From: Candidatus Stygibacter australis | GTDB lineage: Bacteria; Cloacimonadota; Cloacimonadia; Cloacimonadales; TCS61 | Direction: 5' to 3' | DNA length: 39,285 nucleotides | NCBI GenBank assembly: GCA_030765845.1 | Contig: JAVCDJ010000124.1 | Location: 1-39,285 of the forward strand | Shown here: piece by piece, positions 1,264 to 26,315 of the stretch | Layout of the letters: each line of letters starts with the position of its first letter | How positions within the stretch are numbered: the first letter of the stretch is position 1 | Notes under the pieces: model-generated | What the model was told of the DNA's origin: nothing | Seen by the model: the letters and a program-made list of their open reading frames with translations, nothing else | Database searches by the model: none | Position numbers and translations under genes: made by a program

Positions 1264-1293
1264 ACTCGCCAGATTATATATAACCTGGCGAGT
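1264..1293. terminator. Bidirectional rho-independent terminator
   Basis: A perfect 9-bp GC-rich stem, ACTCGCCAG (1264-1272) and CTGGCGAGT (1285-1293), closes a 12-nt AT loop. It is followed on the plus strand by GTTTTTGG and preceded by AATAAAAATCAA, which is a T-rich tail on the minus strand. It lies between convergent transcription units and could end both, including the long purine operon about 330 nt away. Confidence 0.75.
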
Positions 1294-1623: not shown

Positions 1624-2448
1624 TTATAATTTCTGAGCTTCGGTGAGGGATTTGATATTTGTAACTTTGTTATAGATGGCGAGTAATTCTGCTGTGATGC
1701 TGATGGCAATTTCCTGGGTAGTGGTTTTGGCAATATTCAGGCCGATGGGGGTGTGGATATTCTGGAGTTGCTGGTTGGAAATTCCGATATTTTTGAGTTG
1801 CTGCAGATTTTCGGCAGCTTTTTGATGGGAAGCTATCATGCCCAGATAGGTAAGATTTAAATTCCGCTGACAGATATTTAAGAGGATATCATAATCATTT
1901 GAATGAGCATGGGTGAAGATGATCACAGCATCCTGGGGAGCTGGGAGAAATTCTTTGGCAAACTGGAGGTAGTCCTGGCAGATAACATTATCTGCCTGAG
2001 GAAGTCTTTCTGAGCTGGCATATTCTTCTCTATTATCTATCACTACCAGGTGAAACTGGAGTGATTTCAGGATGGGCAAAATGCTTTTGCAGAGATGTCC
2101 GGCACCAAAAAGATAGATAGTTTTGGCAGGAGCAAAATATTCCAGAAATATTTTGGCATTACCTCCGCATTGCATTCCTATACCCATTTCTGCTTCTGTG
2201 AGTTCAAATTCCATCAGTTTATTTTCTTTAGTAGTAAATATCTCAAGGCAGGCAGCGCGTATTTTATGCTCAATAAGCCCACCGCCCACAGTACCTTCTG
2301 AAGAACCGTCGGGATATACTATCATTTTGAACCCGCTGCGGCAGGGGGTTCCACCTATCGATTCCAGTACAGTAGCCATCACGAACGGAGTATTTTTCTG
2401 GAGATTATCTGCTGCCTGGATAATTATCTGATTAAAAGAAGTTTCCAT
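1624..2448 (-). CDS. xdhC: XdhC/CoxI-family molybdenum hydroxylase maturation factor
   Basis: A 274-residue XdhC-type accessory protein. Members of this family bind molybdenum cofactor, help its sulfuration and pass it to xanthine-dehydrogenase-like enzymes. The N-terminal XdhC/CoxI domain shows VLESIGGTPCRSG, 'GTVGGGLIEH' and 'GIGMQCGGNAKIFLEYF'. A central Rossmann segment follows (YLFGAGHLCKSI, near residue 115). The C-terminal 'IGLNIAKTTTQEIAISITAE' is the family's typical end motif. Its ATG directly abuts the TAA of the upstream mocA-like gene, so the two are translationally coupled. It is the last gene of the purine operon, behind two molybdenum hydroxylases that could be its clients. 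Length is normal and it looks intact. The E. coli gene also called xdhC is a different protein (the 2Fe-2S subunit). Confidence 0.88.
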   Translation of the reverse strand: METSFNQIIIQAADNLQKNTPFVMATVLESIGGTPCRSGFKMIVYPDGSSEGTVGGGLIEHKIRAACLEIFTTKENKLMEFELTEAEMGIGMQCGGNAKIFLEYFAPAKTIYLFGAGHLCKSILPILKSLQFHLVVIDNREEYASSERLPQADNVICQDYLQFAKEFLPAPQDAVIIFTHAHSNDYDILLNICQRNLNLTYLGMIASHQKAAENLQQLKNIGISNQQLQNIHTPIGLNIAKTTTQEIAISITAELLAIYNKVTNIKSLTEAQKL

Positions 2449-3042
2449 TTAAGTTCCTGTTTCAGTTAATTTATCTTTCAATTCCTGAGGAGTATTGATA
2501 TTATCAAGGATATTGGGATCATCGACTGGAATGCGTTTGATGATACTTTCCGGCAGGGATTTAATAATTATACTGAGATTATCACTTACAGAAGCATTTA
2601 GAATGCGTCCACCTACCTGAGGAGAAATAATCAGAGGATGTCCAGTTCGATTTTGAGATGTAAGCACTGGTAAAAACAACTGGTGGTGATCATCAATAGC
2701 CGAGACCAGGATCTGATAGGTATCCAAAGCGATAAATGGCTGATCTATCAGGTGAATGAGATAATTAGTTGAAAGGGCATCAGCCTTGAGAGCTAATTTG
2801 AGAGATGAGAACATACCCAGTTCAGGTTGAGAGTTATTGACGAATTCCACATTTTGAGTAAAAAGATGTTCTTGCAGATTCTGATGATTTTCTCCAGTGA
2901 CAATAATGATCTTTGAGGAAAATTCCTGTAGTTTGCCTATTATTATATCCACAACCGCGATACCTTCTATCTGCAAAAGAGCTTTATCTGTGCCCATGCG
3001 GGTAGAATTTCCGGCAGCTAAGATAATGGAAGTGAGATTCAT
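2449..3042 (-). CDS. mocA: MocA/MobA-like molybdenum cofactor nucleotidyltransferase
   Basis: A 197-residue nucleotidyltransferase of the MobA-like group. The N-terminal LAAGNSTRMGTDKALLQIEG is the nucleotide-binding loop (LAAGxSxRMGxxK). 'IHLIDQPFIALDTYQ' corresponds to the metal-binding D-x-P region, and 'NRTGHPLIISPQ' matches the 'G.P..' motif of the CTP-using MocA subgroup. MocA makes molybdopterin cytosine dinucleotide, the cofactor form used by bacterial xanthine-dehydrogenase-family enzymes. E. coli carries the related ygfJ in the equivalent purine cluster. The start codon shares one base with the stop of the 2Fe-2S gene, and the stop touches the XdhC start. MobA (GTP, bis-MGD) cannot be fully excluded, but the neighbourhood favours MocA. 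Confidence 0.82.
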   Translation of the reverse strand: MNLTSIILAAGNSTRMGTDKALLQIEGIAVVDIIIGKLQEFSSKIIIVTGENHQNLQEHLFTQNVEFVNNSQPELGMFSSLKLALKADALSTNYLIHLIDQPFIALDTYQILVSAIDDHHQLFLPVLTSQNRTGHPLIISPQVGGRILNASVSDNLSIIIKSLPESIIKRIPVDDPNILDNINTPQELKDKLTETGT

Positions 3043-3515
3043 TAACTATCCTGGTGAAGAATATCAGCAGCCATTTGCACAGCTTCAATGATCTGAACGT
3101 AACCTGTGCAGCGGCAGAGATTACCTTCCAGGGCGGTTTTGATCTGCTCTTCTGAAGGTTGTAAATTTTCCAGAAGCAAAGCTTTGGCGCTCATGATCAT
3201 GCCCGGAGTGCAAAATCCGCACTGGACGGCACCGGTTTTCAAAAAACTATCCTGCAAAGTTTTAAGGATTTTATCCTGTTCAGCGTTTTCGATAGTTTCT
3301 ATATCAGTATCCATCACCTGACAGGAGAGTATCATACAAGAGCAGACAGCCTTACCATTCATCAAAACGGTGCAGGCACCACATTCACCCACAGAGCAGC
3401 CTTCTTTTGTGCCGGTAAGATTCAATTCGTCACGCAGAATATCTAAAAGCCTCATATTATCAGGAACATTTAATTCCTGCGGGAGATTATTAAGAGTAAA
3501 TTTAAGCTTGATCAT
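3042..3515 (-). CDS. 2Fe-2S subunit of the second molybdenum hydroxylase
   Basis: A two-cluster ferredoxin-type small subunit of the xanthine dehydrogenase/CO dehydrogenase family, about 157 residues. The plant-type cluster is CSVGECGACTVL with a fourth Cys in 'VCSC'. The second, helical-domain cluster is 'QCGFCTPGM' plus 'NLCRCTGY'. I chose the ATG at 3515 (protein MIKLKF...) over an upstream in-frame GTG at 3527, because GTGAG then lies at a ribosome-binding distance and the overlap with the upstream gene becomes 14 nt, the same as in the first hydroxylase set. It should carry electrons between the Mo centre and the FAD domain of the fused protein encoded just upstream (3502-6735), which has no Fe-S domain of its own. 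Confidence 0.9.
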   Translation of the reverse strand: MIKLKFTLNNLPQELNVPDNMRLLDILRDELNLTGTKEGCSVGECGACTVLMNGKAVCSCMILSCQVMDTDIETIENAEQDKILKTLQDSFLKTGAVQCGFCTPGMIMSAKALLLENLQPSEEQIKTALEGNLCRCTGYVQIIEAVQMAADILHQDS

Positions 3516-6500
3516 TTTTATACTCACTATATTGTTTTTTAAAATCAGCCATGGCAGCTATCACGAGATTGACAAACACGGGAATTTTGTAAGAGGCAGA
3601 CCATCTTTTGCCGATTTTGGGGTTAAGAATACTATTAAGCCTGTATTTCAAATCACGATAAAGTTTTTCATCAATCCAGCGCCCGATAATAAATTCTTCA
3701 AGTTCCGGGAGACGCCCGGGTTTTTCGAGAAGCGATCCGGCAACAATCCGGCAATTACAGATCTTTTTGTCCTGATCAAATTCTAAACTGGCGCAGATAC
3801 TGATCCGGGTGATATTAAGCGCTTTGCGTCTGCCAAGCTGGAAGTAATGCGAGAATGATTTTGGGGGCTGAGGCAGGGGGATATTAACTGCTGTGAGAAT
3901 CTCATCCGACTCAATTGCCGTATGATAACTTTTGATGATGAAATCTTTCATGGGAATAGTACGAGTGCCTTTGGCAGAACTAAGGCTCAACTCAGCATCA
4001 TAAAAGATGAGGGGTGGAATACTATCTGCACAGGGAGCAGCATTTACTATATTCCCGCCAATTGTGGCAATATTCCTGATCTGCGTAGAACCTATCTGCG
4101 AGCAGGCAGATGCCAGCACCGGAAAATGCGTATTCACCAGCGGATTAGCGATGATCTCAGCAAAAGTTGTGGTACTGCCAATCTGGAGGGTGTCATTTTC
4201 CAGCGAGACGTATTGCAGTTCTGAGAGTGGTTTGATATTGACCACCTGATGGGTTTCTGCTGAATTGCGCATCTTGATCATCAGGTCAGTACCTCCAGCC
4301 AGAATATTATGCTTACCATCTGCGAGCAGCTTTAATGCCTGCTTTAGTGTAGTTGGCGTTACAGTTTTAGCAGAGATCACAGAGAGGCTGGAGCTGGACT
4401 CAGTTTTGCAGGCTATCATACTCTGACGTTCAGGTTTTTTGAGATTATGATTCAGAAATACCTGTTCAAGTGATAATGGCAGAGCAGCAGAGCTTACGCC
4501 CATGGCATTATAAAGAGCGTTATTGATGGCAGCAGAGATCAATTCAAAGGTGGGTTCACCAAGGCTTTTCGCTCCAAAGGGACCTGCTTTATCTGGATTC
4601 TCTATCAATATGGGAGTAATCTTAGGAATATCCTGGATTGTGGGAATAAGATAAGTATCAAAATTATCAGACAGCACTTCTCCGGCGGAAATATTAAAAT
4701 CTTCTGTGCAGGCATATCCCATACCCTGCACAACACCACCATAGATTTGGCCCTGAGCTCCCAGAAGATTAATGGTTTGACCCACATCATGAGCGGCATA
4801 AACCTGATCAACGCTTATTTTGCCAGTAAAGGAATCAACAGTAACTTCAGCAATTTGACAACCATATACATAGGTGAAATAGGCATCTCCTTTACCGGTT
4901 TCTTCTTCCCAGGATACGTCAGGAGCTTTGAACCAGCCGTAAGCCGAAAGATTAATCCCAGCCTGTAGAGCTTTTTCTACTGCTTCCTTGAAACTGAGAG
5001 CAGATTTGGGTTTTTTGCCTGACTTTGTATAGATCATACCCTCTTTCCAGATAGTATCTTTGAGCGCTTTTACTTTGAGCTCAGCTTTGATGATCTCAAA
5101 GATGTCTTCTTTCAGCTTCTGAGCAGCATCATTTATGGCATTTCCACCGGCAATTGTACCGCGTGATGCCACCGTGGGACCACCATCAGCAATAGTAGAA
5201 GTTTGTGGTGCTAGGAAAATGGCATCAGCAAGTGGAACTCCTAATATTTCACAGGCGATCTGGCACATAGTAGTCTGCAGACCCTGTCCATTTTCAGATA
5301 CAGCGGTGATAATGATCAAACTGCCGTCAGCCTGGATAGATACAATTGCAGAGGATACATCAGTACCTTCTGCACCCAGAGAACAACCACGATAGCTGCA
5401 TGCCAGCCCGATACCTTTTCTGTAGCGGGGAGGTAATTTTATAAATTCTCTGTTTGCCTGCCATTTATTAACGAAATCTGCTTTTTCTACTGCAGTATTC
5501 AAAACCTGCCGCAGCGAAACTTTATGCTCAGATAACATCTGCCCGGAGGCAGTAATACTATCCTGCTTGAAGCCATTGATGAGTCGTACCTCAAGTGGGG
5601 TGAGTTCACAATGGACAGCAATTTCATCCATCAGCGATTCCTGAGCAAAAATTATCTGGGGAGAACCAAATCCCCTGAATGCTGCTGTATAACAATTATT
5701 AGTATAAACCGACCTGATATCGGTTTCTACATGCGGGATTTCATAAGGTCCAGTAGCTTGAACTACTGAACGCCAGGTGACAAAAAATGTCTGAGACGAA
5801 TAAGCTCCACTATCAGCCAGAATGTCAATTTTCATGGCTATTATTCTACCTTCTCTTGTGAAGCCGACTTTGTAATTCATGATATATGGATGTCTTTTGT
5901 AACTTTCACGCAGAGAATTTTCACGGGAATTTGTCATCTGAACAGGCTCCCCGGTCATCTGGCATAAAAGTGCAGCACGGCAGACCATATTATTGATAAT
6001 ATCATCTTTACCACCAAAAGATCCACCCAATACTGATGGTATCACATTTATCCTGTTCAAGGGCAGGTTCATATACATTGCTGCCACTTTACGGGTAGTA
6101 TAAGGATTTTGGATTGAGCCATAGATATTGAAACCGCCAGTTGAGTGATCAGGTTCCACCGTTACCGTTTCAGGTTCTATATAAGCATGTTCCTGGAAAC
6201 CAGTGGTATATGTTCTGGTAAGTATTGCATCAGCTACTTGAAATCCAATTTTGATGTTACCCTTGCGCAGTGGATAATGATTAACAATATTCGATTTATA
6301 TTCAGGATGAATAAGTCGTGCTTTGGGAGATACTGCCTTGCGCGGGTCAGTGAGGGGTTTGTATGGCTCATATTCCACTTTAATGGCATCTGCTGCTTTG
6401 AAGGCAGCTTCCCGGCTTTCTGCAGCAACCACTGCTATCACATCTCCAGTGAAGAATACCTCATCATTCACAATTGGCAGATAATCCTGCCGGATTGGTC

Positions 6501-6735
6501 CTACCTTTTGCGCTCCGGGTATATCTTTGTAGAGAGCAATTGTCTTCACACCCGGTATCTTTTCCGCGGCAGAGGTATCTATGGAAATTATTTTGCCAGT
6601 GACAATATCTGTGTATTTGCAGGCAGCATAGAGCATGTCATTTAATTTGATATCATTACCATAAATGGCTTTACCGGTAACCTTTTGATCACCGTCAATA
6701 CGGGTAACTTCTTTTCCTATCAGGTTCATTTTCAC
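3502..6735 (-). CDS. xdhD: Fused molybdopterin + FAD subunit of an XdhD-like molybdenum hydroxylase
   Basis: A 1,077-residue protein. Residues 1 to about 760 are the xanthine-dehydrogenase molybdopterin domain: 'GGSFGGKDD' near 237, 'AFRGFGSPQ' near 352, 'SENGQGLQTT' near 485 and 'GAKSLGEPTFE' near 723, which holds the expected catalytic Glu. Residues about 785-1077 are a complete FAD domain of the CO dehydrogenase medium-chain type: 'TPTTLKQALKLL', 'AGGTDL' near 813, and 'IRNIATIGGNIVNAAPCAD'. Normally these are separate polypeptides (E. coli xdhD and ygfM) or occur in the order FeS-FAD-Mo (eukaryotic XDH). Here the order is Mo-FAD and the 2Fe-2S domain is a separate downstream gene. The protein starts 8 nt after the first hydroxylase's FAD gene ends. 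Its substrate is probably a purine; XdhD is a named member of the E. coli purine cluster, but orthology is inferred from context. No stop interrupts the linker. Confidence 0.88.
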   Translation of the reverse strand: MKMNLIGKEVTRIDGDQKVTGKAIYGNDIKLNDMLYAACKYTDIVTGKIISIDTSAAEKIPGVKTIALYKDIPGAQKVGPIRQDYLPIVNDEVFFTGDVIAVVAAESREAAFKAADAIKVEYEPYKPLTDPRKAVSPKARLIHPEYKSNIVNHYPLRKGNIKIGFQVADAILTRTYTTGFQEHAYIEPETVTVEPDHSTGGFNIYGSIQNPYTTRKVAAMYMNLPLNRINVIPSVLGGSFGGKDDIINNMVCRAALLCQMTGEPVQMTNSRENSLRESYKRHPYIMNYKVGFTREGRIIAMKIDILADSGAYSSQTFFVTWRSVVQATGPYEIPHVETDIRSVYTNNCYTAAFRGFGSPQIIFAQESLMDEIAVHCELTPLEVRLINGFKQDSITASGQMLSEHKVSLRQVLNTAVEKADFVNKWQANREFIKLPPRYRKGIGLACSYRGCSLGAEGTDVSSAIVSIQADGSLIIITAVSENGQGLQTTMCQIACEILGVPLADAIFLAPQTSTIADGGPTVASRGTIAGGNAINDAAQKLKEDIFEIIKAELKVKALKDTIWKEGMIYTKSGKKPKSALSFKEAVEKALQAGINLSAYGWFKAPDVSWEEETGKGDAYFTYVYGCQIAEVTVDSFTGKISVDQVYAAHDVGQTINLLGAQGQIYGGVVQGMGYACTEDFNISAGEVLSDNFDTYLIPTIQDIPKITPILIENPDKAGPFGAKSLGEPTFELISAAINNALYNAMGVSSAALPLSLEQVFLNHNLKKPERQSMIACKTESSSSLSVISAKTVTPTTLKQALKLLADGKHNILAGGTDLMIKMRNSAETHQVVNIKPLSELQYVSLENDTLQIGSTTTFAEIIANPLVNTHFPVLASACSQIGSTQIRNIATIGGNIVNAAPCADSIPPLIFYDAELSLSSAKGTRTIPMKDFIIKSYHTAIESDEILTAVNIPLPQPPKSFSHYFQLGRRKALNITRISICASLEFDQDKKICNCRIVAGSLLEKPGRLPELEEFIIGRWIDEKLYRDLKYRLNSILNPKIGKRWSASYKIPVFVNLVIAAMADFKKQYSEYKNDQA

Positions 6736-6743
6736 ATCCAGTT

Positions 6744-7574
6744 TTAATCAGTATTAGCAGATTCAATAAATTTCTGCAGGTAATTAAAGCACACCTGCAG
6801 GCGATATTCTTTGTCCGAGCGGAAATCACTTATGGGCGTAACATCCTTTTTTAAGGCATTCATCAGATCAGTATCATTTAGATCTTGAGAATGTAAGGTG
6901 ATATATTCTTCAACGTTGTATAAACGTCGAGGATATTCATTCAAACTACCGGCAGCAATTTTGAAATTATCTTCATATTTCACAAAGGCAAGAGCGACTT
7001 TGGCGATTGTAAGAGCAGTGCGGGAGCCAATCTTGATGTATTGCGGCTGATATTTGCAGGCGAAATTCAAGGGAATTTCAATGGCAATTATCAGTTCATC
7101 ATCTCGGAGCACGGTTTTTTTATATCCGGTATAAAATTCAGATAAGGGTACTGTCCGGGTGGTAGTTATTGATTTCAATACCAATTTGGCTTCCAATACC
7201 AGCAGTAGTGGTACAGTGTCTGCAGTTGGTGATGAATTAGCAATATTTCCGGCAAGAGTGGCAAAATTCGCTATAGGTGGTGAAGCAAAATCAATCAGCG
7301 AATCAGATAGGTATGGGCAATACTCTTTAATAATTGCTGAGCTGGAAATTTCGCTGATCGTAGTTGTGGCACCTATGATCAATTTTGTGCTGCACATATC
7401 CACACCATGCAGTTCCGGTAAATGGTTGATAAATATTATCGCTTCATCTGATATCTTACCCAGTTTAATGAGAATATTCAGATCAGAGCCTCCAGCCAGC
7501 AGCAGTTTCTTATCCGGAAGCTCAGATAATAGATTTAAGACCTCCGACAAGTTTTCTGGTTTATATACTTTCAT
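6744..7574 (-). CDS. xdhB: FAD subunit of xanthine dehydrogenase-like enzyme
   Basis: A 276-residue medium (FAD) subunit. The FAD-contacting motifs are 'LLLAGGSDLNILIK' near residue 27 and 'PPIANFATLAGNIANSSPTAD' near 105, the family's (I)xNxATxGGNIxxxSPxxD. The C-terminal CO-dehydrogenase flavoprotein segment, 'IKIGSRTALTIAKVALA', is also visible. It overlaps the 2Fe-2S gene upstream by 14 nt and ends 8 nt before the fused Mo-FAD gene. With 8046-10199 (Mo) and 7561-8049 (2Fe-2S) it completes a standard three-subunit enzyme that would pass electrons from purine hydroxylation to NAD or ferredoxin. Length matches E. coli XdhB-type subunits. It is less similar to the FAD domain of the neighbouring fused protein than a recent duplicate would be. 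Confidence 0.9.
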   Translation of the reverse strand: MKVYKPENLSEVLNLLSELPDKKLLLAGGSDLNILIKLGKISDEAIIFINHLPELHGVDMCSTKLIIGATTTISEISSSAIIKEYCPYLSDSLIDFASPPIANFATLAGNIANSSPTADTVPLLLVLEAKLVLKSITTTRTVPLSEFYTGYKKTVLRDDELIIAIEIPLNFACKYQPQYIKIGSRTALTIAKVALAFVKYEDNFKIAAGSLNEYPRRLYNVEEYITLHSQDLNDTDLMNALKKDVTPISDFRSDKEYRLQVCFNYLQKFIESANTD

Positions 7575-8049
7575 GGTTCAGCTCCTGATCAGCTAATTTC
7601 CGGCAGACTAGCTGCACCGCATCAATGATCTTACGATAACCTGTGCAACGGCAGATATTACCTGATAATGCCCATTTGATCTTATCTTCATCAAGATCAG
7701 GATTATTGGCCAGATAATGATAGGAGGTTACCAGAAAACCCGGGAAACAAAAACCGCACTGTACTGCATTTGTTTCCTGATAGCAATCTGCTATCAGTTT
7801 ACCGAGTGGTGTTTCGGAAATTCCTTCAGCAGTGATCACGCTGCCACCATCTACCTGAATGATATTTATCAGGCAACTGGTTACAGGAATATCATTTAAA
7901 AGCACTGTGCAGGCTCCGCACTCTCCTTCACCGCAGGATTCTTTTACAGAAGTCAGTTTATAGTCTTCCCTGAGCACATCTAAAAGACGTCGCATGGGAT
8001 CAGTATCAATACTGGTTTCTTTGCCATTAAGATAGAAGTTTATTTTCAT
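7561..8049 (-). CDS. 2Fe-2S subunit of xanthine dehydrogenase-like enzyme
   Basis: A 162-residue small subunit with both [2Fe-2S] sites: C39, C44, C47 and C59 (SCGEGECGACTVL ... TSC) and C98, C101, C133 and C135 (QCGFCFPGF ... NICRCTGY). The second site has FCFPGF where most relatives have FCTPGM, a mild change next to a ligand. It overlaps the Mo subunit gene by 4 nt (ATGA) and the FAD gene by 14 nt, so the three are translated together. It relays electrons from the Mo centre to the FAD. Confidence 0.92.
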   Translation of the reverse strand: MKINFYLNGKETSIDTDPMRRLLDVLREDYKLTSVKESCGEGECGACTVLLNDIPVTSCLINIIQVDGGSVITAEGISETPLGKLIADCYQETNAVQCGFCFPGFLVTSYHYLANNPDLDEDKIKWALSGNICRCTGYRKIIDAVQLVCRKLADQELNHESI

Positions 8050-10199
8050 AATGAACTCCTGTTGATCTCTTGATAAATACGCTCAGGTGTGAGTGGCAGG
8101 TCATTAATGATAACTCCTGCTGCCTGGATAAGAGCATTGCGAACAGCGGGAGCAGGATAATCCATGGGGATTTCTCCTAATCCCTTTGCCACTGCAGAAT
8201 CCGTATGGATAAATTCCACTATCATCTCAGGCATATCCTCAGTAGTGGGTAAAGTGTAATCTGTGAAACCACGAGTTCGGGGATAACCCTTTTTATAGAT
8301 ATTCTCTGTAAGTGCCCAGCCCAAAGCCTGGGTAACGCCACCATAAACCTGACCCAGAGCAATATCGTGATTGATAACTCTGCCGATGTCAAGCACATTC
8401 CAGCATTTTGTCACTTTCGCTTTATATTGCAGGGGATCATAATCAATTTCCACTACGCAGGCAGCCCAGGAAAAATCATGATAAGCAGTACCCTGATTGG
8501 TTTTATCATCAAAATCATCATTGGGGTCTGGCTTAAAGCTGAGTTCGTAGTCTTTGGGGAATAGTTCCTGATGATCCTGGATATAACCCGCCAGATCATC
8601 ACATTTCAATTCATACTTAATCTTTGCAGCAAGTTTTTGCAGTAAGCTTCCCACAATATAAATTGTCCTGGAAGCTACAGTAGGTCCGCTGTTAGGGGTT
8701 TTTCCAGTATTGGGAATTTGAACATTTACCTTTTCCAGAGGGATATTAAATTCTTCATTTACCATCTGAGCAAGCGTTGTATGAGCCCCCTGTCCCATCT
8801 CCACATTGGCCACAAATATCTGGACATTAGCATTCTTATCCAACCGCATTTTTACTTTGGACTGCAAGTCCTTTTCACCATTACCGGTGTATCCGCCACC
8901 ATGCAGGGCCATTACAAGTCCAATCCCTTTTTTATCTTTATGATCCTTGTTATATTGCTCAAACTGTCTGTGTTTATTAGCATAATCAGAAATCTCCAGT
9001 ATTCGCTGCATACATTCATGGAGATGATCTTCTTTAACTACCTGTCCTGAAGGCATTTTGTCATTTTTTCTCAGAAGATTAATTTCACGCATTTCCAGCG
9101 GAGATTTACCTATTGCTCTGGCAATATTATCAAGATGAGATTCAATGGCAAATATTGCCTGAGGAGCACCAAATCCTCTAAAAGCTCCATTGGGTGGAGT
9201 ATTGCTTTGTTGCAGAAAACCGCTGATCTCGCAGCGTGGCAGGTTATAACCTCCACCGGCATGGAGAATCCCACGATGTAACACTACAGGTGACAGGGTT
9301 TGATATGCTCCCGCATCTAAGCGATAATTGATATTTACAGCTTTTATTTTACCTGTCTGGACATCTGTATAGGAGACAATTGCCACCCGTGATGGGTGTC
9401 TTTTTGTGGTTATCAGCAGATCATCGGCTCGCTCAAGTTTTATCTTCACTGGTTTGTGGGCTTTATAGGCAAGCAGAGCTGTAATCCCAGCCAGCAGATT
9501 AGGGAAATCTTCCTTTCCGCCAAATGCTCCACCAATCCCTTCAGATGTTTCCACGATCACTTTTTCTACAGCATTCCCCATGATCACTTTCACTGCTTCT
9601 TCCACGAAAAATGGGCATTGCATGGTACCAGTGATCTTTATCTTGCTGTTCTTTTGATCATATTCTGCCAGCATCCCTTGTGGTTCCAGATAAGCCTGCT
9701 CCTGGTGCTGGGTATAAAACACCTCTTCAATGTGTTTCAGATGCTCAGGATCAACTTTAGCACCATCCTTGTGACTTATGTGCATGCACTCGCCAAACTG
9801 AAATGCCTTATCATCGAGGCAAGTATCTACGTCAGTAATTGCCATTTCCTCTTCGTACTCAATTTTGATGGCAGAAATGAAACTCATAAGTGTTTTCAAT
9901 TCAGGATGTGCTATTCCCATGATCACCTGACCATAGTGCAGCACCTCTCCTTTGGTCATAAAGGGTTGGTCTGATACCGGCTCAGGAACTATATTCTCCC
10001 CTGGAATATCTGATGCCTGCACAATAGTAAATTCCTTCAGGTCATAATCCTGGGGATAAGATATATTTTTGATCTTTCCTTTGTCTATTGTGGCATAGAG
10101 CAAATAACCATGCAGCATATCTTCCAGGGAATAATCATCCAGAAAACGGCATTTCCCGATAATTTTTGCCAGACCATCTTTTCTTGGTTTAGATTTCAT
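8046..10199 (-). CDS. xdhA: Molybdopterin subunit of xanthine dehydrogenase-like enzyme
   Basis: A 717-residue molybdenum-binding subunit. Visible motifs are 'QEQAYLEPQ' near residue 173, 'GIGGAFGGKED' near 223, 'AFRGFGAPQ' near 338 (the Arg that contacts purines in xanthine oxidase), 'EMGQGAHT' near 470 and 'KGLGEIPMD' near 672, which holds the catalytic Glu equivalent. E. coli XdhA is 752 residues, so this is a slightly short full-length subunit. Products of this family hydroxylate hypoxanthine or xanthine at carbon using water. It starts 12 nt after the threonine-synthase-like gene. An in-frame selenocysteine codon is neither seen nor needed; some relatives use a labile selenium ligand instead, which sequence cannot show here. 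Confidence 0.9.
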   Translation of the reverse strand: MKSKPRKDGLAKIIGKCRFLDDYSLEDMLHGYLLYATIDKGKIKNISYPQDYDLKEFTIVQASDIPGENIVPEPVSDQPFMTKGEVLHYGQVIMGIAHPELKTLMSFISAIKIEYEEEMAITDVDTCLDDKAFQFGECMHISHKDGAKVDPEHLKHIEEVFYTQHQEQAYLEPQGMLAEYDQKNSKIKITGTMQCPFFVEEAVKVIMGNAVEKVIVETSEGIGGAFGGKEDFPNLLAGITALLAYKAHKPVKIKLERADDLLITTKRHPSRVAIVSYTDVQTGKIKAVNINYRLDAGAYQTLSPVVLHRGILHAGGGYNLPRCEISGFLQQSNTPPNGAFRGFGAPQAIFAIESHLDNIARAIGKSPLEMREINLLRKNDKMPSGQVVKEDHLHECMQRILEISDYANKHRQFEQYNKDHKDKKGIGLVMALHGGGYTGNGEKDLQSKVKMRLDKNANVQIFVANVEMGQGAHTTLAQMVNEEFNIPLEKVNVQIPNTGKTPNSGPTVASRTIYIVGSLLQKLAAKIKYELKCDDLAGYIQDHQELFPKDYELSFKPDPNDDFDDKTNQGTAYHDFSWAACVVEIDYDPLQYKAKVTKCWNVLDIGRVINHDIALGQVYGGVTQALGWALTENIYKKGYPRTRGFTDYTLPTTEDMPEMIVEFIHTDSAVAKGLGEIPMDYPAPAVRNALIQAAGVIINDLPLTPERIYQEINRSSL

Positions 10200-10211
10200 A
10201 TATTTCCCTCC

Positions 10212-11423: not shown

Positions 11424-11431
11424 TTACATTC

Positions 11432-12901: not shown

Positions 12902-12922
12902 TTTATCCTCTCAAATTTATTT

Positions 12923-14113: not shown

Positions 14114-14117
14114 ACTT

Positions 14118-15320
14118 CTATCCCTCATTAAGTTTCGCAACCAGTCCAGCATAAAATGCTGCTGCCTGCCAAAGGTCACTGATCTTCACACTCTCATTTA
14201 CGGCATGTGCCTGATCTTCATCTCCAGGACCCAGTCCCAGACATTTGATCTCAGGATGCTTGCCCATAATGAACACACAATTAGTGCTGAAAGTCCATTT
14301 ATCTATTTTGGGAGCTTTATCGAATAAATTAATATAAGCCTCTTCCGCACTTTTCAGCCATAGGGAATCTTTGGGTAATACCCAGGTTGGAAAATATTTC
14401 TCTACTGGATATATTTTACCAGTATATGCTTTTTCCTCGTATAGGGGAACCGTTATCTCAGCATCACTGATCCCTGCCCGATCACAACAGGCTCGCACTT
14501 CTGCCACAGAGCTTTCTTTATTTTCACCCACAGTAAGCCTTCTATCCAGCAGAATTCTTGCCCGGTCAGGTACAGAACACTGGCTGGCTGAATCTGATTT
14601 GAATATCGTAGTGGTAATTGTTCCTTTACCCAGGAAATCATCATCTTTTAGTTCGGCAGGTAATTTTTCGATTTCTTTCACGATAGATGCCATTTTATAA
14701 ATAGCATTAACTCCCCGCTCAGGTGCTGAACCATGGCAGGAAACGCCTTTCACTTCTACTTCTATCTCCATTCTGCCTCTATGACCACGATATATATTCA
14801 AACTCGTGGGCTCAGTGCTTACTACCAGCTCAGGCTTGATACCTTCTTCCTCAATCAGATATTCCCAGGCAATTCCATCACAATCTTCCTCCATCACAGT
14901 ACCGGTAAACAAAATTGTAAATTCTTTATTCAAACCCAGTTTCCTGATGATCTTCCCAGCTGTCAGCATGGCTGCCATGCCGCCTAACTGATCTGAGCTA
15001 CCACGTCCCCATACCCGATCCTTATCAATCATTCCTGAATGAGGTGGAAAATTCCAGTCTGCTGTATCTCCGGGATACACGGTATCTATATGAGCATCAA
15101 AAGCTATAATTCTCTTACCGTTTCCTATTTTACCAATAACACTGCCTAATCCGTCAATCCGCACATCATCAAATCCATGGTCTTCCATTTCACGCTTCAG
15201 AAGTTTTACCATATCAGCTTCTTTACCCGAAAATGATGGTGTCTGGATCATCCTGCTCAAGAGTTTTGCAGTTTCTTTTGTATAACTTTCTGCCAGATTT
15301 TTTATTGCCTTGTAATCCAT
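14118..15320 (-). CDS. ygeY: YgeY-type M20 metallo-amidohydrolase
   Basis: A 400-residue protein of the M20/ArgE/DapE group (E. coli YgeY has 403). Metal and catalytic residues are in place: H77 and D79 in 'FDAHIDT', D110 in 'WGRGSSDQLGG' (bridging), E144/E145 in 'TVMEEDCDG', Glu near 171 in 'STEPTSLN' and a late His in 'DQAHAVNE'. The dimerisation-domain motif 'RGRMEIEVEVKGVSCHGSAPERG' is also present. Family enzymes hydrolyse N-acyl or N-carbamoyl amino acids. In purine clusters YgeY is assigned to removal of a carbamoyl-type group before the PLP lyase step. It starts 12 nt after ygfK and ends 4 nt before ygeW. Intact and full length. Confidence 0.92.
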   Translation of the reverse strand: MDYKAIKNLAESYTKETAKLLSRMIQTPSFSGKEADMVKLLKREMEDHGFDDVRIDGLGSVIGKIGNGKRIIAFDAHIDTVYPGDTADWNFPPHSGMIDKDRVWGRGSSDQLGGMAAMLTAGKIIRKLGLNKEFTILFTGTVMEEDCDGIAWEYLIEEEGIKPELVVSTEPTSLNIYRGHRGRMEIEVEVKGVSCHGSAPERGVNAIYKMASIVKEIEKLPAELKDDDFLGKGTITTTIFKSDSASQCSVPDRARILLDRRLTVGENKESSVAEVRACCDRAGISDAEITVPLYEEKAYTGKIYPVEKYFPTWVLPKDSLWLKSAEEAYINLFDKAPKIDKWTFSTNCVFIMGKHPEIKCLGLGPGDEDQAHAVNESVKISDLWQAAAFYAGLVAKLNEG

Positions 15321-15332
15321 ATAATGTCCCTT

Positions 15333-18300
15333 CTATAATTTAATTAGATATCCATATTTTTCATTAATTGATTTGATCACTTCCACGGTTTCGGGAGAGA
15401 TGAACACCTCTTTCCCTGTTTTATCTTTCACCATAAATCCATCCTCATCAATAAACTCACCTTCTACTTCAAAATAACGTACAAGACCTTGATTATCACC
15501 GCTGAAATACACCCCATTATTATTGCTTTCGGCAAAATCTTCTGCTGAACTGAATAGATTGAATTTATCTTTATAAGGCTTCCCCTGATAGGGGCAGAAG
15601 GTCTCACAATTTCCGCATTCATTACATAATTTATCTAAATGGATGATCTGAAAATGATCTAACAATCGAGTTGAATTCACCCTGATAGCCACATTAGCCC
15701 GATTGGGACATACTTCCACGCATTTATTGCACAGATAATCGCATTTCAAGCAGCGCTCTGTTTCCAGCTTGATATCATCAGCTACTGGTTTTATCTTTCC
15801 TTTCTCTTTATGTAATTTATATATCTCGCTTTCAATTTCCAGGTAAGATTTTTCCACTTGATCAGTCTTATATTCTATCTTTTCTTTCTTCAAAATCTGC
15901 TCAGCAGCTTCAATCCCATCTGCCATTGACTGAACCACCGAAGAAGGCCCTCGCCTGGCATCTCCAGCTATATACACATTTTTGAGATTTGTTACACATT
16001 CATTTTTGGCGTCAATATGATTAGCCTTCAAATAATCCTGATCAACAATTTCACCAATTGCGGAAATCACCAGATCAGCAGGAATCAGAACCACCGGCTC
16101 AGCAGCAGGTATTGCCTGCCTGCGTCCAGAATTATCGATCTCACCCAATTTCATCGGCTGACAGATCAATTCTCCATTTTTATATGCCACTGGCTGTAAT
16201 AGTTCTCTGAATTCCACTCCATCTTTCAAAGCATTTTCAAATTCTTCTTTATCTGCCGGCATCTCAGCTTCTGTTCTGCGATAAACCAGGCTCACATTTT
16301 TCACTCCACCGCGCCTGATTGCTGCCCGGGCACTATCCATGGCAGAATTACCTCCACCTGTAACTACAATATTCTGAATTTCCTTCATGGGAAACTCATT
16401 TCGTTTATTTTTCCGCAAAAATTCCAGAGCATGGAAAACTTTATCATTATCACCCTTCAGTTTCAAATTCCTGCTCTTTCCTGCTCCAATTGCTAATATC
16501 ACATATTTATTTCCAGCTGAGAGCAATTCGTCGACCCCCACCTTTGAATTATAAATGATTTCCACACCACAACGTATGAGCATTTCCAGATCTTTATCAA
16601 TCACTTCTTCCGGTAGCCTGAAACCAGGTATCACCTGTCTTACCAATCCCCCGGCAGATGACTCCTTTTCATATATTTTCACCTGCATTCCCTGTCTTCG
16701 TAAATATAATGCTGCCGAAAGTCCTGCTGGCCCCGCTCCGATTATCGCCACGCTTGCTCCATTAATTTCACTGGCTGTTAAGCTCTCAAGATATTCATAA
16801 TATCCTTCCGCTGCTGCTTCCTTTTTTATTTCTCTGATTGATAACGGATATTCATAATCCACACGCACGCATTTTGTTTGACAGGGCTGTTCACATATAT
16901 AACCAGTAATATGGGGCAGAGCATTTCTTAAGTGAATAACCTGCAATGCTTCAGCATATTTTTCTTCCGCAACCAGTCTGATATATTCTGGAATATCTTG
17001 CTCGATTGGGCAACCTTTCTGACAGCCAGCTCCCGCACAGTCATAAATAGGTAACTTATTATTATTCTTTACACTGACGTTGAACTTACCATATCCATAA
17101 TCCTTGTTTACGGCACGATCAGCGAGTTCTGACAGCACTTGTTGATCTATCTGCTCCGGTAAAGAACTGTCATTGAGAATTTCACACAATTGAGCTATTC
17201 TTTTATATCCCCCCGGTTTCAGTAGATTTGTAGCCATTGTTACGGGTCTAATACCACTTGCAGCAATATCCTTGATATTCTCAAATTCTGCTCCTCCACA
17301 ATAAGAAATATTTAACTTCTGACCAAAATCCAGATGTAGTTTGTGTGCCAGATTGATAGTTAATGGAAAAAGTGCTTTCCCGCTCATATACATTTCGTTT
17401 CCTGGTAAAACCTGCTTAAGATTCTTTACTGGCAAAGTGTTTGAGAGCTTTACTCCAAACATCCTGTCCTGCTTCTCTGCGTAGGCCATAAGAGCAGACA
17501 CAATTTCTTTTGCTGCCCCATATTGCAGATCATGCGCAAAAGTATCTGGCTTCAATTCCAGATTAAACCCCAATTTCTGCATTGTTTCATGCACATATTC
17601 ATATCCTAGTAAAGTTGGATTCAATTTCAGAAATGTATGCAGTTTCTTTTCTCCCAGCAAATATCGGCAAATTGCTTCCTGATCTTCTGGAGGACAGCCA
17701 TGCATCGTCGATAGCGTTATTGAATTTGAGATTTGTGAAGGTATATTTATAATCTTATCACTCCATTTTTCCATGTCTAGTCGTTTACTGACAAAGTCTC
17801 TCAGCTCCCGCACGCATTGATTGAAATATGACTCATTACCTGCATCAACCAGGTTATTGATAAATTTATCAATTTTGGGAGACTTGATCCCCTTTAGATC
17901 ATAGCCCACACTCATATTAAAGATGAAACCTTCATCCTGTTCAGATAATTCCAGAAAATCCCTCAAAAAGTGCATTATAACCCAGGCTTTCACATATTCC
18001 TGATATGCCTCTTCTACGCTCAATTCTGTGCTCCACTCTGTATTATAACCTTCATATTCTGCTTCTATACAGGGCTTTTCTATATCAAGTTCATCCAGGA
18101 TCTGCACTGTTTTCAGTTCAAAAAATCTTGAACCGGTCAAATATGCTGAAATTATATTTTGAGCACACTGCGTATGAGGTCCTGCTGCTGGTCCTAATAT
18201 AGTCTCATAATCATGTCCCCCTGAACTAAAGTGATTCTTTCCCCGATTACGGAAAAAACTGGCATCATTTATCCCAAAAATGCTTCTCTGTTTTTCATAT

Positions 18301-18359
18301 TCGCTGCATATCCAGTTCAACAAATCCCCGAAAACGACTGGTTTCATCACCATACTCAT
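15333..18359 (-). CDS. ygfK: YgfK-type multi-domain flavin/iron-sulfur oxidoreductase
   Basis: A 1,008-residue protein, close to E. coli YgfK (1,032). Residues about 1-400 form a dihydroorotate/dihydropyrimidine dehydrogenase-like barrel ('STMHGCPPEDQ', 'FGVKLSNTLPV', 'ISYCGGAEFENIKDIAASGI'). Near 440 comes 'CAGAGCQKGCPIEQDIPEYI', the glutamate-synthase small-subunit-type Fe-S entry. Near 540 is the FAD site 'IIGAGPAGLSAALYLRRQG', then an NADPH-type site 'VVTGGGNSAMDSARAAIRRG' and 'YIAGDARRGPSSVVQSMADG'. The C-terminal Cys clusters are near 870 (CLKCDYLCNKCVEVCP) and 912 (CNECGNCETFCP). The name 'putative selenate reductase' used for this family is historical. The layout resembles dihydropyrimidine dehydrogenase and suits reduction or oxidation of a ring intermediate in purine breakdown. 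Its ATG overlaps the ssnA stop by one base (TGATG). Confidence 0.92.
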   Translation of the reverse strand: MSMVMKPVVFGDLLNWICSEYEKQRSIFGINDASFFRNRGKNHFSSGGHDYETILGPAAGPHTQCAQNIISAYLTGSRFFELKTVQILDELDIEKPCIEAEYEGYNTEWSTELSVEEAYQEYVKAWVIMHFLRDFLELSEQDEGFIFNMSVGYDLKGIKSPKIDKFINNLVDAGNESYFNQCVRELRDFVSKRLDMEKWSDKIINIPSQISNSITLSTMHGCPPEDQEAICRYLLGEKKLHTFLKLNPTLLGYEYVHETMQKLGFNLELKPDTFAHDLQYGAAKEIVSALMAYAEKQDRMFGVKLSNTLPVKNLKQVLPGNEMYMSGKALFPLTINLAHKLHLDFGQKLNISYCGGAEFENIKDIAASGIRPVTMATNLLKPGGYKRIAQLCEILNDSSLPEQIDQQVLSELADRAVNKDYGYGKFNVSVKNNNKLPIYDCAGAGCQKGCPIEQDIPEYIRLVAEEKYAEALQVIHLRNALPHITGYICEQPCQTKCVRVDYEYPLSIREIKKEAAAEGYYEYLESLTASEINGASVAIIGAGPAGLSAALYLRRQGMQVKIYEKESSAGGLVRQVIPGFRLPEEVIDKDLEMLIRCGVEIIYNSKVGVDELLSAGNKYVILAIGAGKSRNLKLKGDNDKVFHALEFLRKNKRNEFPMKEIQNIVVTGGGNSAMDSARAAIRRGGVKNVSLVYRRTEAEMPADKEEFENALKDGVEFRELLQPVAYKNGELICQPMKLGEIDNSGRRQAIPAAEPVVLIPADLVISAIGEIVDQDYLKANHIDAKNECVTNLKNVYIAGDARRGPSSVVQSMADGIEAAEQILKKEKIEYKTDQVEKSYLEIESEIYKLHKEKGKIKPVADDIKLETERCLKCDYLCNKCVEVCPNRANVAIRVNSTRLLDHFQIIHLDKLCNECGNCETFCPYQGKPYKDKFNLFSSAEDFAESNNNGVYFSGDNQGLVRYFEVEGEFIDEDGFMVKDKTGKEVFISPETVEVIKSINEKYGYLIKL

Positions 18360-19666
18360 CAGTTTTTCTCCTTCAATTCTATAAATCTTTCAAATAATCC
18401 CTTCGATATTTCTCCACTACGCTCCTTCAAATCTGCGTAGGGATCCAAAGTAACCTGATAATTATCCAGCAGTATATTGTCACCTTTTATCACATATTGA
18501 GCTCGGGATTCTGTGATCCCAAAAATAAAATGACCCAGAAAACTATCACTGTCAAACGGTGTAGCAGGAATATAATCAAAGATTGCCAGGTCTGCTGCAT
18601 CATCTTCCATAATCCCCAGATCATAACCATATGCCTGCTTCAATGCATAAGAATTCTTTAGAAGACCATTCATCTCAGAATAACCTTCATCAGCACTACC
18701 ATTTTGATATTTGCAGAAAATATAGGAATTTTTATATGATTTCATAATATTTGAACTCATCCCGTCTGTACCCACTGTCACTCTGATCTCCCTGACAGTA
18801 AGATCATGGATATTTGCCACATTCAGACCGTTATTCTGATTTGAATCCACTGCCTGAACTATCCATATATCTTCGTCATGCAATTTCTTCCAATCAGTTT
18901 TAGTCAGATTACTGCAATGTACCAGCAGTGAATTCTTTCTCAGTAATCCGTGTTTTTTTAATCGCTCAATTATAAATAGATTATATTTATCCATTGTTTC
19001 TCTCATATCAAGAATATCCTCAGATACATGTATATGGATTGGTAGATCATCTGAACTTTCAGCAATTTTTTGCAAGCTTTCATCGCTGAGTGTAAAAGAA
19101 GCATGCATCCCCAGCATTCCCTGCACAGAACTGTCCTTATGTTTTCGGGTAAATTCCAGATTCTCTCTTAACGATTCCTCAAAAACCTCCTTGCCATTCC
19201 GGTCGCTCATCTCAAATGCCAGCACACCTTGAATACCATAAGATTCAAAAACTTCTGCCATCAGATCCAATGATCCACTGATATAGGAAGCAGATATATG
19301 ATGATCAAATATCGTAGTTACACCCTGCTTCAGGCAGTCTTCCATTGTAAGTACTGTGGAAAGCTGTACACTTTCCTTATCAAGTGCTCTATCCAATGTC
19401 CACCACAAATTCTTAAGATTTCCCAGAAAATCACCAAATGGCACTTTGCAGGGTATGCCTTTGGATAGTGTAGAATATATGTGATGATGAGCATTTACTA
19501 ATCCTGGCATGATTATCTTACCCTCACAATCAATTTCCCTGTCCACATTATCATTTCCTGCTGTATATTTCACTTTGCCATCAATCACATATAGATCCTG
19601 CTTCTTAACTTCATATCCCACTTCGTCGGGATAGATCACATAACCACCCTTAATCAGATAATTCAT
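18359..19666 (-). CDS. ssnA: SsnA-type aminohydrolase
   Basis: A 435-residue amidohydrolase-superfamily protein (E. coli SsnA has 442) of the guanine deaminase/chlorohydrolase branch. Metal ligands: H60 and H62 in 'GLVNAHHHIYSTLSKG', a His in 'LPIHIHVSED', a His in 'LLVHCSNL' and an Asp in 'VTVGTDGMSSN'. The C-terminal 'DDAADLAIFDYIP' strand matches the small beta domain typical of these enzymes. It is a named member of the E. coli purine/urate cluster and is expected to deaminate or open a purine-derived ring. It overlaps hyuA by 17 nt and ygfK by 1 nt. Intact. Confidence 0.9.
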   Translation of the reverse strand: MNYLIKGGYVIYPDEVGYEVKKQDLYVIDGKVKYTAGNDNVDREIDCEGKIIMPGLVNAHHHIYSTLSKGIPCKVPFGDFLGNLKNLWWTLDRALDKESVQLSTVLTMEDCLKQGVTTIFDHHISASYISGSLDLMAEVFESYGIQGVLAFEMSDRNGKEVFEESLRENLEFTRKHKDSSVQGMLGMHASFTLSDESLQKIAESSDDLPIHIHVSEDILDMRETMDKYNLFIIERLKKHGLLRKNSLLVHCSNLTKTDWKKLHDEDIWIVQAVDSNQNNGLNVANIHDLTVREIRVTVGTDGMSSNIMKSYKNSYIFCKYQNGSADEGYSEMNGLLKNSYALKQAYGYDLGIMEDDAADLAIFDYIPATPFDSDSFLGHFIFGITESRAQYVIKGDNILLDNYQVTLDPYADLKERSGEISKGLFERFIELKEKN

Positions 19667-21005
19667 TTTTTTCTCCTTGCACTCTCACCATTTTACCACT
19701 CCCAGCTTCTGCTGTTATTCCTTTATCAAATTCAAATATTATCTCTCCACGCCTGATTGTTTTCACCACTTTTCCTTTGAAAACCTTTCCCTCAAAGGGT
19801 GTCATCCTGCCTTTAGACAAAAAATCTGCTCCGTGTACTACGTACTCCTTATCGGCATCTATCAAAACAAGATCTGCGTCATATCCCTCAGCTATTCTGC
19901 CCTTGATATTCGCTATTCCATACCGCTTAGCAGGATTTTCACAAATTATCTCCAGCAACCTTTTTAAACCTATTCGACCTTTCATATAACCTTCAGAAAA
20001 CAGATAAGGCAATAGCAGACCACTACCGGCTATTCCTCCATAATCATTCCAGATTGATCCCGTAGTCTTATCCTCTATTCTACTGGCTGCATGATCTGAA
20101 GTCACAAAACTGATCGTGCCATCTGCTACCAGATCCCACAAATTCTCTTGCTCATCCTGCTTGATTACCGGTGCCAATTTCAATACGCTTCCCTGCTTTC
20201 GAAAATCGTCCAGATTAAAGGCCAGATATTGCGGACAGGTTTCCACACTAACCCCATATTTTACTGCTACCTTTGCCGCTTCCCCTGTGCTGATATGCAC
20301 AATCTGCAGATCACCCCCTGTCTCCTCAGCCAGTTTTGCTGCCTGACTTACGGCAATTATCTCTGCTTCTTCCGGACGACTTTTGTAATAATTATCCACA
20401 CCTGAACCCAGCTTGCGCTGCACTTTCTCTGCTGTCAGTATATATGCCTCATCCTCTGCATGAAGCAGTATCGGAAGACCCAGCTCCCTGCTCATTAATA
20501 ATATTTCCCGCAATTCAGTATATGTCACACTGCCAAAGGTGTCCATACCCGATTTCAGATAGCACTTAAATCCTGCCACATAGGGAGCAAGCTCTCTCAT
20601 CCTCGTTCTGAAATCTCCCAGATCATTACCATTTACTCCCCCATAAAACATATAATCTACCACTGACTGCTGTTTAACCACTTCCAGCTTAATCTTCAGG
20701 TTTGCCAGACTTGTAACTGGAGGCAAACTCGTGCAGGGCATATCAAAAACAGTGGTTATTCCTCCACTTGCAGCAAAACTGCTTCCATGATAAAAATCCT
20801 CACGCAGTTCAAAGCCCGGGGTGTTAAAATGCACATGAGCATCTATTCCACCGGGAAGGACATAAAGCCCTTCAGCATCGATTATATCATCATCTGCCGG
20901 AATTGTATCCGTAAGCTCTTTGATTTTACCATCTTCTACGATGATGGATATTTTTTTTAATTCGTCCTCGCCTTTTAAAGCGACTAATCCATTCCTGATT
21001 ACCAT
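19650..21005 (-). CDS. hyuA: HyuA-type hydantoinase/allantoinase-like cyclic amidohydrolase
   Basis: A 451-residue binuclear metal amidohydrolase (E. coli YgeZ/HyuA has 461). Ligands are complete: H57 and H59 (GGIDAHVHF), carboxylated lysine K147 (AGFKCYL), H182 (LLHAED), H237 (IVHIST) and D304 (TSDHA). 'DAHVHFNTPGFELREDF' is closer to allantoinase ('DxHVHFNEPG') than to dihydropyrimidinase. The reaction is hydrolytic opening of a five- or six-membered cyclic amide (allantoin, hydantoin or related). It is the first gene of the thirteen-gene minus-strand operon. AGAAGGG lies 8 nt before the ATG at 21005 (minus-strand sense). The divergent region upstream holds the presumed promoter and a repeat hairpin. 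Confidence 0.9.
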   Translation of the reverse strand: MVIRNGLVALKGEDELKKISIIVEDGKIKELTDTIPADDDIIDAEGLYVLPGGIDAHVHFNTPGFELREDFYHGSSFAASGGITTVFDMPCTSLPPVTSLANLKIKLEVVKQQSVVDYMFYGGVNGNDLGDFRTRMRELAPYVAGFKCYLKSGMDTFGSVTYTELREILLMSRELGLPILLHAEDEAYILTAEKVQRKLGSGVDNYYKSRPEEAEIIAVSQAAKLAEETGGDLQIVHISTGEAAKVAVKYGVSVETCPQYLAFNLDDFRKQGSVLKLAPVIKQDEQENLWDLVADGTISFVTSDHAASRIEDKTTGSIWNDYGGIAGSGLLLPYLFSEGYMKGRIGLKRLLEIICENPAKRYGIANIKGRIAEGYDADLVLIDADKEYVVHGADFLSKGRMTPFEGKVFKGKVVKTIRRGEIIFEFDKGITAEAGSGKMVRVQGEKNELSD

Positions 21006-21228: not shown

Positions 21229-21355
21229 CTCTACAGGGGTGTTATATATCCAATAGAAGGGCGAGAGAGTAGAGTTGAATATCGATTCTCAGCTATTTTG
21301 TTTGTCAATAATTAGCAGATTTGCTTTAATGGTTTTGAATAAATCGGGAGTAAAA

Positions 21356-24446: not shown

Positions 24447-24475
24447 TTGACATTAGTTAGCGTTCACTAACTATT
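24447..24475 (+). promoter_or_regulatory. tetR promoter with overlapping operator
   Basis: A perfect -35 TTGACA (24447-24452) is followed by the dyad TAGTTAGCGTTCACTAACTA (24454-24473), arms TAGTTAG(C/T)G. The dyad fills the spacer and runs into the weak -10 (about 24469-24475, AACTATT). Bound repressor would cover the promoter. A sister site with the same core lies at 25105-25123 ahead of the Fe-S gene. The shared core, read on one strand, is GTTAGTGAA-N3-TAACTA. Confidence 0.75.
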
Positions 24476-24503
24476 GGCACGCATTAAGAAACAGGAGGTT
24501 CAG

Positions 24504-25082: not shown

Positions 25083-25104
25083 GTTATATTTTTTTATTTA
25101 TTAT

Positions 25105-25123
25105 GTTAGTGAATATTAACTAA
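25105..25123 (+). promoter_or_regulatory. Second TetR-type operator, ahead of the Fe-S/cupin/hcp genes
   Basis: GTTAGTGAATATTAACTAA is an almost perfect palindrome (TTAGTgAATATTaACTAA, one mismatched pair). It shares GTTAGTGAA-N3-TAACTA with the reverse strand of the site in the tetR promoter. It ends at the ribosome-binding sequence AAGGAGAG (25122-25129), just before the ATG at 25133. Repressor here would block transcription entry into the operon. Confidence 0.72.
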
Positions 25124-25132
25124 GGAGAGATA

Positions 25133-26301: not shown

Positions 26302-26315
26302 ATAAGGAGATTATT

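Follow-up and report, generated by a model that had tools for sequence, protein, structure and literature searches.

In Escherichia coli, urate is degraded without oxygen by a reductive route in which XdhD-YgfM reduces urate to yanthine, YgfK and SsnA dearomatise and open the ring, HyuA yields diureidopropionate, YgeW and YgeY strip the ureido groups and YgeX forms pyruvate, the genes lying in the order ygeW-ygeX-ygeY-hyuA-yqeA ... ygfK-ssnA-ygfM-xdhD (Li et al. 2025, PMC12507026). For the YgfK, SsnA and HyuA steps there is biochemical proof from E. coli/C. difficile (PMC12507026), and pathways of this kind are known, having been described in 2023-2025. The phyla named in a published survey of SsnA are Pseudomonadota, Bacillota, Chloroflexota, Actinomycetota, Spirochaetota and Elusimicrobiota (PMC12507026), whilst a commentary proposes that reductive urate degradation may come from gut adaptation (PMC12990295). 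Here we describe a 14-gene operon of Candidatus Stygibacter australis (phylum Cloacimonadota), which very probably, judging by its genes, serves anaerobic purine/urate breakdown. It lies in a 39,285 nt stretch (JAVCDJ010000124.1, contig C124; hereafter the window) of a 3.82 Mb, 95% complete genome (GCA_030765845.1, hereafter G000). Our reading, to which we give a probability of roughly 0.75, is that the operon would encode a reductive purine/urate degradation pathway of YgfK-SsnA type whose first and last steps have been rebuilt. Its novelty would lie in the host phylum, in the absence of YgeX, of XdhD and of the permease, in a pair of pyridoxal phosphate (PLP) enzymes which we refer to as PALPthr and PALPcys, and in variant forms in relatives.

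The operon and its conservation

The 14 open reading frames (ORFs) lie head to tail at 1624-21005 on the minus strand, with junctions of -62 to +21 nt, in the order given below. The genes were compared with family models and their curated cut-offs, and comparisons with E. coli refer to strain MG1655. The sequence-only reading of the window had counted thirteen genes, leaving two PLP-enzyme genes at 10212-12901 unmentioned; its account of one-directional packing with gaps of at most 21 nt was exact (largest gap 21 nt), and its FCB-type genome agrees with the phylum, Cloacimonadota being a member of the FCB group.

19650..21005, minus: cyclic amidohydrolase of the allantoinase/hydantoinase family in the HyuA slot, proposed to hydrolyse ureidomethyl-hydantoin; allantoinase model 352 bits (cut-off 358), 31% identity to E. 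coli HyuA
18359..19666, minus: SsnA-family amidohydrolase, proposed to open the dihydro-yanthine ring; PRK07203 358 bits (cut-off 444), 33% to E. coli SsnA
15333..18359, minus: YgfK, flavin/Fe-S reductase, predicted yanthine dearomatisation; TIGR03315 1250 bits (cut-off 835), 45% to E. coli YgfK along nearly the entire length
14118..15320, minus: YgeY, M20-type ureido hydrolase; 529 bits (cut-off 321), 50% to E. coli YgeY
12923..14179, minus: YgeW, knotted carbamoyltransferase (ureido phosphorolysis to carbamoyl phosphate); 624 bits (cut-off 453), 58% to E. coli YgeW
11432..12901, minus: PALPcys, 489-residue CysK-fold PLP enzyme, a regular additional member of clusters of this type; predicted fold, motifs, occurrence in ~15 phyla
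10212..11423, minus: PALPthr, 403-residue PLP enzyme resembling threonine synthase, with an N-terminal CxxC..CxxC, proposed to act as diaminopropionate ammonia-lyase instead of YgeX; NF004170 196 bits, under its cut-off
8046..10199, minus: Mo1, molybdenum (Mo)-binding subunit, xanthine-dehydrogenase-type; GGKE and purine-binding Arg kept in an alignment with bovine xanthine dehydrogenase, 27% to E. coli XdhA
7561..8049, minus: FeS1, 2Fe-2S subunit of the Mo1 enzyme; family models
6744..7574, minus: FAD1, FAD subunit of the Mo1 enzyme; family models
3502..6735, minus: Mo-FAD2, second hydroxylase's fused subunit binding Mo and FAD, proposed to reduce urate to yanthine where E. coli uses XdhD-YgfM; MoCoBD at residues 142-704, FAD domain at 791-1062
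3042..3527, minus: FeS2, 2Fe-2S subunit of the Mo-FAD2 enzyme; family models
2449..3042, minus: MocA-like molybdenum-cofactor nucleotidyltransferase; TIGR03310 115 bits, below cut-off
1624..2448, minus: XdhC-family maturation factor; NF045664 220 bits, below cut-off, Pfam XdhC_C and XdhC_CoxI over cut-off
1264..1293, minus: terminator-like 13-bp stem-loop with a T-rich tail, ~330 nt downstream of the last gene; consensus match only

A second species of the genus (G001, locus L049) has all 14 genes in unchanged order, as does another genus (G015, locus L031) the 13 from HyuA to MocA, the fetched piece ending inside MocA, so the conserved synteny that the sequence-only reading had named as one support was found in relatives. 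Nine genes keep their order in a third species of the genus (G002), with ratios of nonsynonymous to synonymous substitution rates (dN/dS) of 0.05-0.28 against G000. Because gene order is conserved in L049 and L031, the operon is not a chance assembly; it is real, conserved and under selection. Of 125 Cloacimonadota genomes, 43 carry YgfK, most of them belonging to two families. A contaminating contig from another phylum was ruled out, as the same-genus contig L049 is Cloacimonadota and the gene order is kept; PALPcys is also 90% identical in a record of the same genus (JAIPGP010000058.1, Candidatus Cloacimonadota bacterium Tobar13.5m-G52).

YgfK, YgeY and YgeW, which score over their cut-offs, are by sequence clearly orthologous to their E. 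coli namesakes in reductive uric-acid degradation, and these names from the sequence-only reading stand; SsnA and HyuA score below theirs, so those two names rest on homology and position. The two Mo enzymes and the MocA- and XdhC-like proteins are likewise homologues with scores under the curated cut-offs, the Pfam matches of the XdhC-like factor excepted. SsnA adjoins YgfK in most syntenic relatives. A carbamate kinase of G000 is encoded outside the operon, beside ruvB (C146:9472-10398; 382 bits, cut-off 358), and inside it in G020 and G004.

The two Mo hydroxylases of the operon are the only ones detected in G000. Mo1 keeps the bovine purine-site Glu and Arg, and Mo-FAD2 has GGKD and the same Arg; these positions correspond to E802 and R880 of bovine xanthine oxidase. 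The Mo subunits share ~27% identity with E. coli XdhA and 22-27% with XdhD, and at E<=1e-150 no XdhD-type enzyme was found in G000, whilst 11 of 59 relatives carry one. A hand count of YgfK-positive genomes of at least 90% completeness and at most 5% contamination found Mo-FAD2 or the XdhD type in 16 of 17, and on this ground we propose Mo-FAD2 for the urate-to-yanthine step; Mo1 would then take the xanthine-to-urate step, and the roles could be swapped. XdhD and Mo-FAD2 do not strictly exclude each other (G023, G026, G028 and G031 carry both), and XdhD Glu606 was dropped as a specificity marker, the alignment being too gappy. Several relatives encode a third Mo hydroxylase (YgfM-like, FeS and XdhD-like subunits, 35-36%) directly behind PALPcys (L166:3258-6825, L160:5907-7845, L161:6512-8287); this XdhD-like enzyme is absent from G000, G001 and G015.

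The PLP enzymes and the proposed route

The AlphaFold model of PALPcys (pLDDT 91.5, pTM 0.93) matched cysteine synthases in Foldseek, with TM values by target of ~0.80-0.84 for most top hits. Its PLP lysine K105 is invariant in 47 sequences and the HxIxGIG/GISS motifs are conserved, yet it reaches only 108 bits against the curated cysK model (cut-off 351) and carries ~100 extra C-terminal residues. Identification as a cysteine synthase (CysK) was rejected: fold and PLP lysine fit, but the score lies far below the cut-off. A role as OrtB (2-amino-4-oxopentanoate thiolase) in ornithine fermentation was similarly discarded, as the best match of G000 to NF040741 is 53 against 550 bits and falls on PALPthr; the neighbourhood also speaks against it. 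In a scan of named genomes PALPcys was found in ~15 phyla; of the 80 loci retained, 55 carry one or more further pathway genes and 37 carry PALPthr. Its tree mixes phyla and places Cloacimonadota in several positions, a pattern that either transfer or old paralogy could produce. Of 59 relatives, 37 hold both PALPcys and PALPthr, three PALPcys only, five PALPthr only and 14 neither (Fisher 4e-7 for co-occurrence, ignoring kinship).

YgeX was not found in G000, where the best PRK08206 score is 46 bits (cut-off 276) and falls on PALPthr; E. coli YgeX gave only short matching fragments against the window. At two loci, L119 (Bacteroidota) and L090 (Candidatus Euphemobacter, Auribacterota), YgeX (42-46% identical to that of E. 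coli) sits 92 or 168 nt behind PALPcys in the usual PALPthr slot, and PALPthr is missing. This positional exchange is the best evidence that PALPthr does the job of YgeX and PALPcys something else, and PALPthr is probably a diaminopropionate ammonia-lyase replacing YgeX. The YgeX genes of G012 and G029 were down-weighted as proof of the exchange, as they stand in an unrelated neighbourhood next to an arsenic efflux gene and the PALPcys contigs of these genomes end before the PALPthr slot.

In the proposed route, one xanthine-dehydrogenase-type enzyme would oxidise xanthine or hypoxanthine to urate and the other reduce urate to yanthine (2,8-dioxopurine), so that electrons would be moved within the purine. 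YgfK would then reduce and dearomatise yanthine, after which ring opening by SsnA (six-membered ring) and HyuA (hydantoin ring) would yield 2,3-diureidopropionate; the YgfK step is proposed from orthology, the SsnA and HyuA steps from weaker homology. YgeW would take one ureido group as carbamoyl phosphate, from which the carbamate kinase on the other contig could form ATP, and YgeY would remove the second to leave 2,3-diaminopropionate. PALPthr, in the place of YgeX, would act as ammonia-lyase to give pyruvate and ammonia, as the positional exchange suggests, whilst PALPcys may act on diaminopropionate or ureido-alanine, for example on the other stereoisomer or in a beta-replacement.

Variant forms, rival explanations and significance

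Many YgfK-positive relatives encode two carbamoyltransferases, A and B, with an adjoining carbamate kinase (L038:13971-16143, L155:5535-7825, L156:6826-9135, L048:6647-8639). Carbamoyltransferase A is 81-89% and B 77-84% identical among relatives, and both are ~30% identical to YgeW. YgeY is absent from all 12 loci that hold both A (at least 50% identity) and B but present in 17 of 22 YgeW loci (Fisher 2e-5), and there is a local carbamate kinase in 21 of 22 B loci vs 3 of 22 YgeW loci, counts which represent tendencies as the contigs are finite and related. This suggests that the A and B relatives may phosphorolyse both ureido groups, gaining two ATP per purine. Another form, lacking YgfK, was observed in other Cloacimonadota families (L147, L148, L150-L154), with the order SsnA-YgeY-PALPthr-amidohydrolase-Mo-FeS, usually followed by YgeW-PALPcys; G043, a 2,246,820-bp single-contig genome, has this form with PALPcys elsewhere in the genome.

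A wider and more tentative proposal, which we hold with less than even confidence, is that a distinct and widespread branch of the pathway may exist in environmental anaerobes of many phyla, in which a threonine-synthase-like enzyme would replace YgeX and PALPcys would add a step on diaminopropionate or ureido-alanine. In Bipolaricaulota, Caldisericota and relatives within Cloacimonadota, YgeW and YgeY would moreover give way to carbamate kinase and two carbamoyltransferases, with both ureido groups phosphorolysed for two ATP per purine against one.

Several observations weigh against reductive urate degradation by the operon. Neither Mo enzyme is an XdhD orthologue (22-27%), SsnA (33%) and HyuA (31%) are distant from their E. 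coli namesakes and below curated cut-offs, and a search for an NCS2 purine permease (PF00860; other transporter families were not searched) found none in G000, G001, G015, G019, G004 or G020. PALPthr carries STGNAG in place of the YgeX motif TDGNHG (D120 to T, D189 to N), at residues that are important in YgeX, and its closest relative is threonine synthase. The relatives are not independent samples, and the existence of a YgfK-less SsnA/YgeY/YgeW/PALP cluster in other Cloacimonadota shows that the downstream module does not have to depend on YgfK for its substrate.

The operon might instead degrade another N-heterocycle or hydantoin (a pyrimidine, a hydantoin or a xanthine-derived compound other than urate), with YgeW, YgeY and the PALP enzymes acting on a related ureido amino acid. 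The closest model of HyuA, allantoinase, would fit this, as would the score of SsnA below its own model's cut-off, the absence of XdhD and the YgfK-less version in other families; we nevertheless consider it improbable, because YgfK, YgeW and YgeY are close orthologues of uric-acid enzymes and stand with SsnA as in proven clusters, and purine-site residues are kept in both Mo subunits. Somewhat less improbable, though still unlikely, is that PALPthr and PALPcys serve threonine or cysteine synthesis or salvage and merely ride along, another enzyme removing diaminopropionate. Threonine synthase and CysK/CBS are indeed their nearest characterised relatives and PALPcys stands alone on some contigs, but the pair is bound to the YgeW/YgeY module in many phyla, PALPthr falls far under the ThrC equivalog cut-offs in most models, YgeX replaces PALPthr in L090 and L119, and G000 itself is without YgeX. 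The least plausible alternative, a very unlikely one, is the clostridial xanthinase pathway, in which xanthine is cleaved hydrolytically to glycine and the operon genes would be accessories: xanthine dehydrogenases and amidohydrolases are present, as it would lead one to expect, yet the operon holds YgfK and the YgeW/YgeY module, which are unused in that pathway (PMC12507026), and no xanthinase gene was recognised in the operon, to which, rather than the whole genome, the search was confined.

Reductive urate degradation has so far been framed as a gut trait tied to gout, whereas close versions of the operon occur in uncultured Cloacimonadota, Bacteroidota, Neomarinimicrobiota, Chloroflexota, Atribacterota and others, pointing to a broad environmental distribution. 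Growth on purines is a prediction, and purines would be a new food source for organisms regarded as amino-acid fermenters. The YgeX exchange would escape surveys that count any PF00291 protein as YgeX (PMC12507026, Fig. 3g legend). The sequence-only reading knew of no earlier description in Cloacimonadota, and we likewise found no paper making the link; the published SsnA phylum list omits this phylum. A full-text literature search, with subscription papers and preprints outside its scope, found no paper linking Cloacimonadota to uric acid, or Cloacimonetes to xanthine dehydrogenase. A Black Sea study reports xanthine dehydrogenases in most of its genomes and counts Cloacimonadota among its fermenters, with no description of the cluster in those passages (PMC11129491). 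The record for the phylum is likely new.

Neighbouring genes and comparison with known systems

A D-2-hydroxyacid dehydrogenase-like gene (21275-22336, plus strand) lies divergently ahead of the operon, 269 nt from its start; a promoter scan of the stretch separating it from HyuA gave no promoter-like site. An Rfam search gave no matches. Beyond it lie a beta-CASP metallo-beta-lactamase RNase (22891-24282, plus), matching aCPSF1 and a 'type VII Cas14' model below their cut-offs, and a run of genes for a TetR regulator, a ferredoxin-domain protein, a cupin and a hybrid-cluster (prismane) protein (24474-27977, plus), which may together respond to nitrosative or redox stress. Next come two C25 (gingipain-like) proteases in tandem (28726-33516 and 33990-38765, both plus), which carry type IX secretion sorting domains; they are 82% identical over 1589 aligned residues, which suggests a recent duplication and would fit extracellular protein use.

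The operon matches the type of the oxygen-independent purine/urate pathway (PMC12507026), as the sequence-only reading had held. Its further claim of the same gene set as E. coli did not hold: the two share orthologous YgfK, YgeY and YgeW, homologous SsnA and HyuA, maturation genes of MocA and XdhC/YqeB type and the presence of two Mo hydroxylases at the locus, whereas YgeX, XdhD/YgfM and an NCS2-type purine permease are missing from the window operon and from G000, carbamate kinase lies outside the operon, PALPthr and PALPcys are added and all 14 genes are co-directional. PALPcys has no counterpart in the E. coli cluster. The clostridial xanthinase pathway likewise breaks down purines without oxygen, but uses other enzymes after xanthine and has no YgfK/YgeW/YgeY module. 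With the neighbourhood of a selenium-dependent molybdenum hydroxylase (YgfK/SsnA/YgeY/YgeW/YqeB; PMC2276186) the operon shares the names of the neighbouring genes, and differs in showing no sign of selenium cofactor genes (SelD was not searched). The C. difficile variant (UacX, UacY; PMC12507026) likewise shows that lineages can differ in individual steps of the route; in that variant YgfK and YgeW have been replaced, whereas the window operon keeps both and exchanges YgeX and XdhD.

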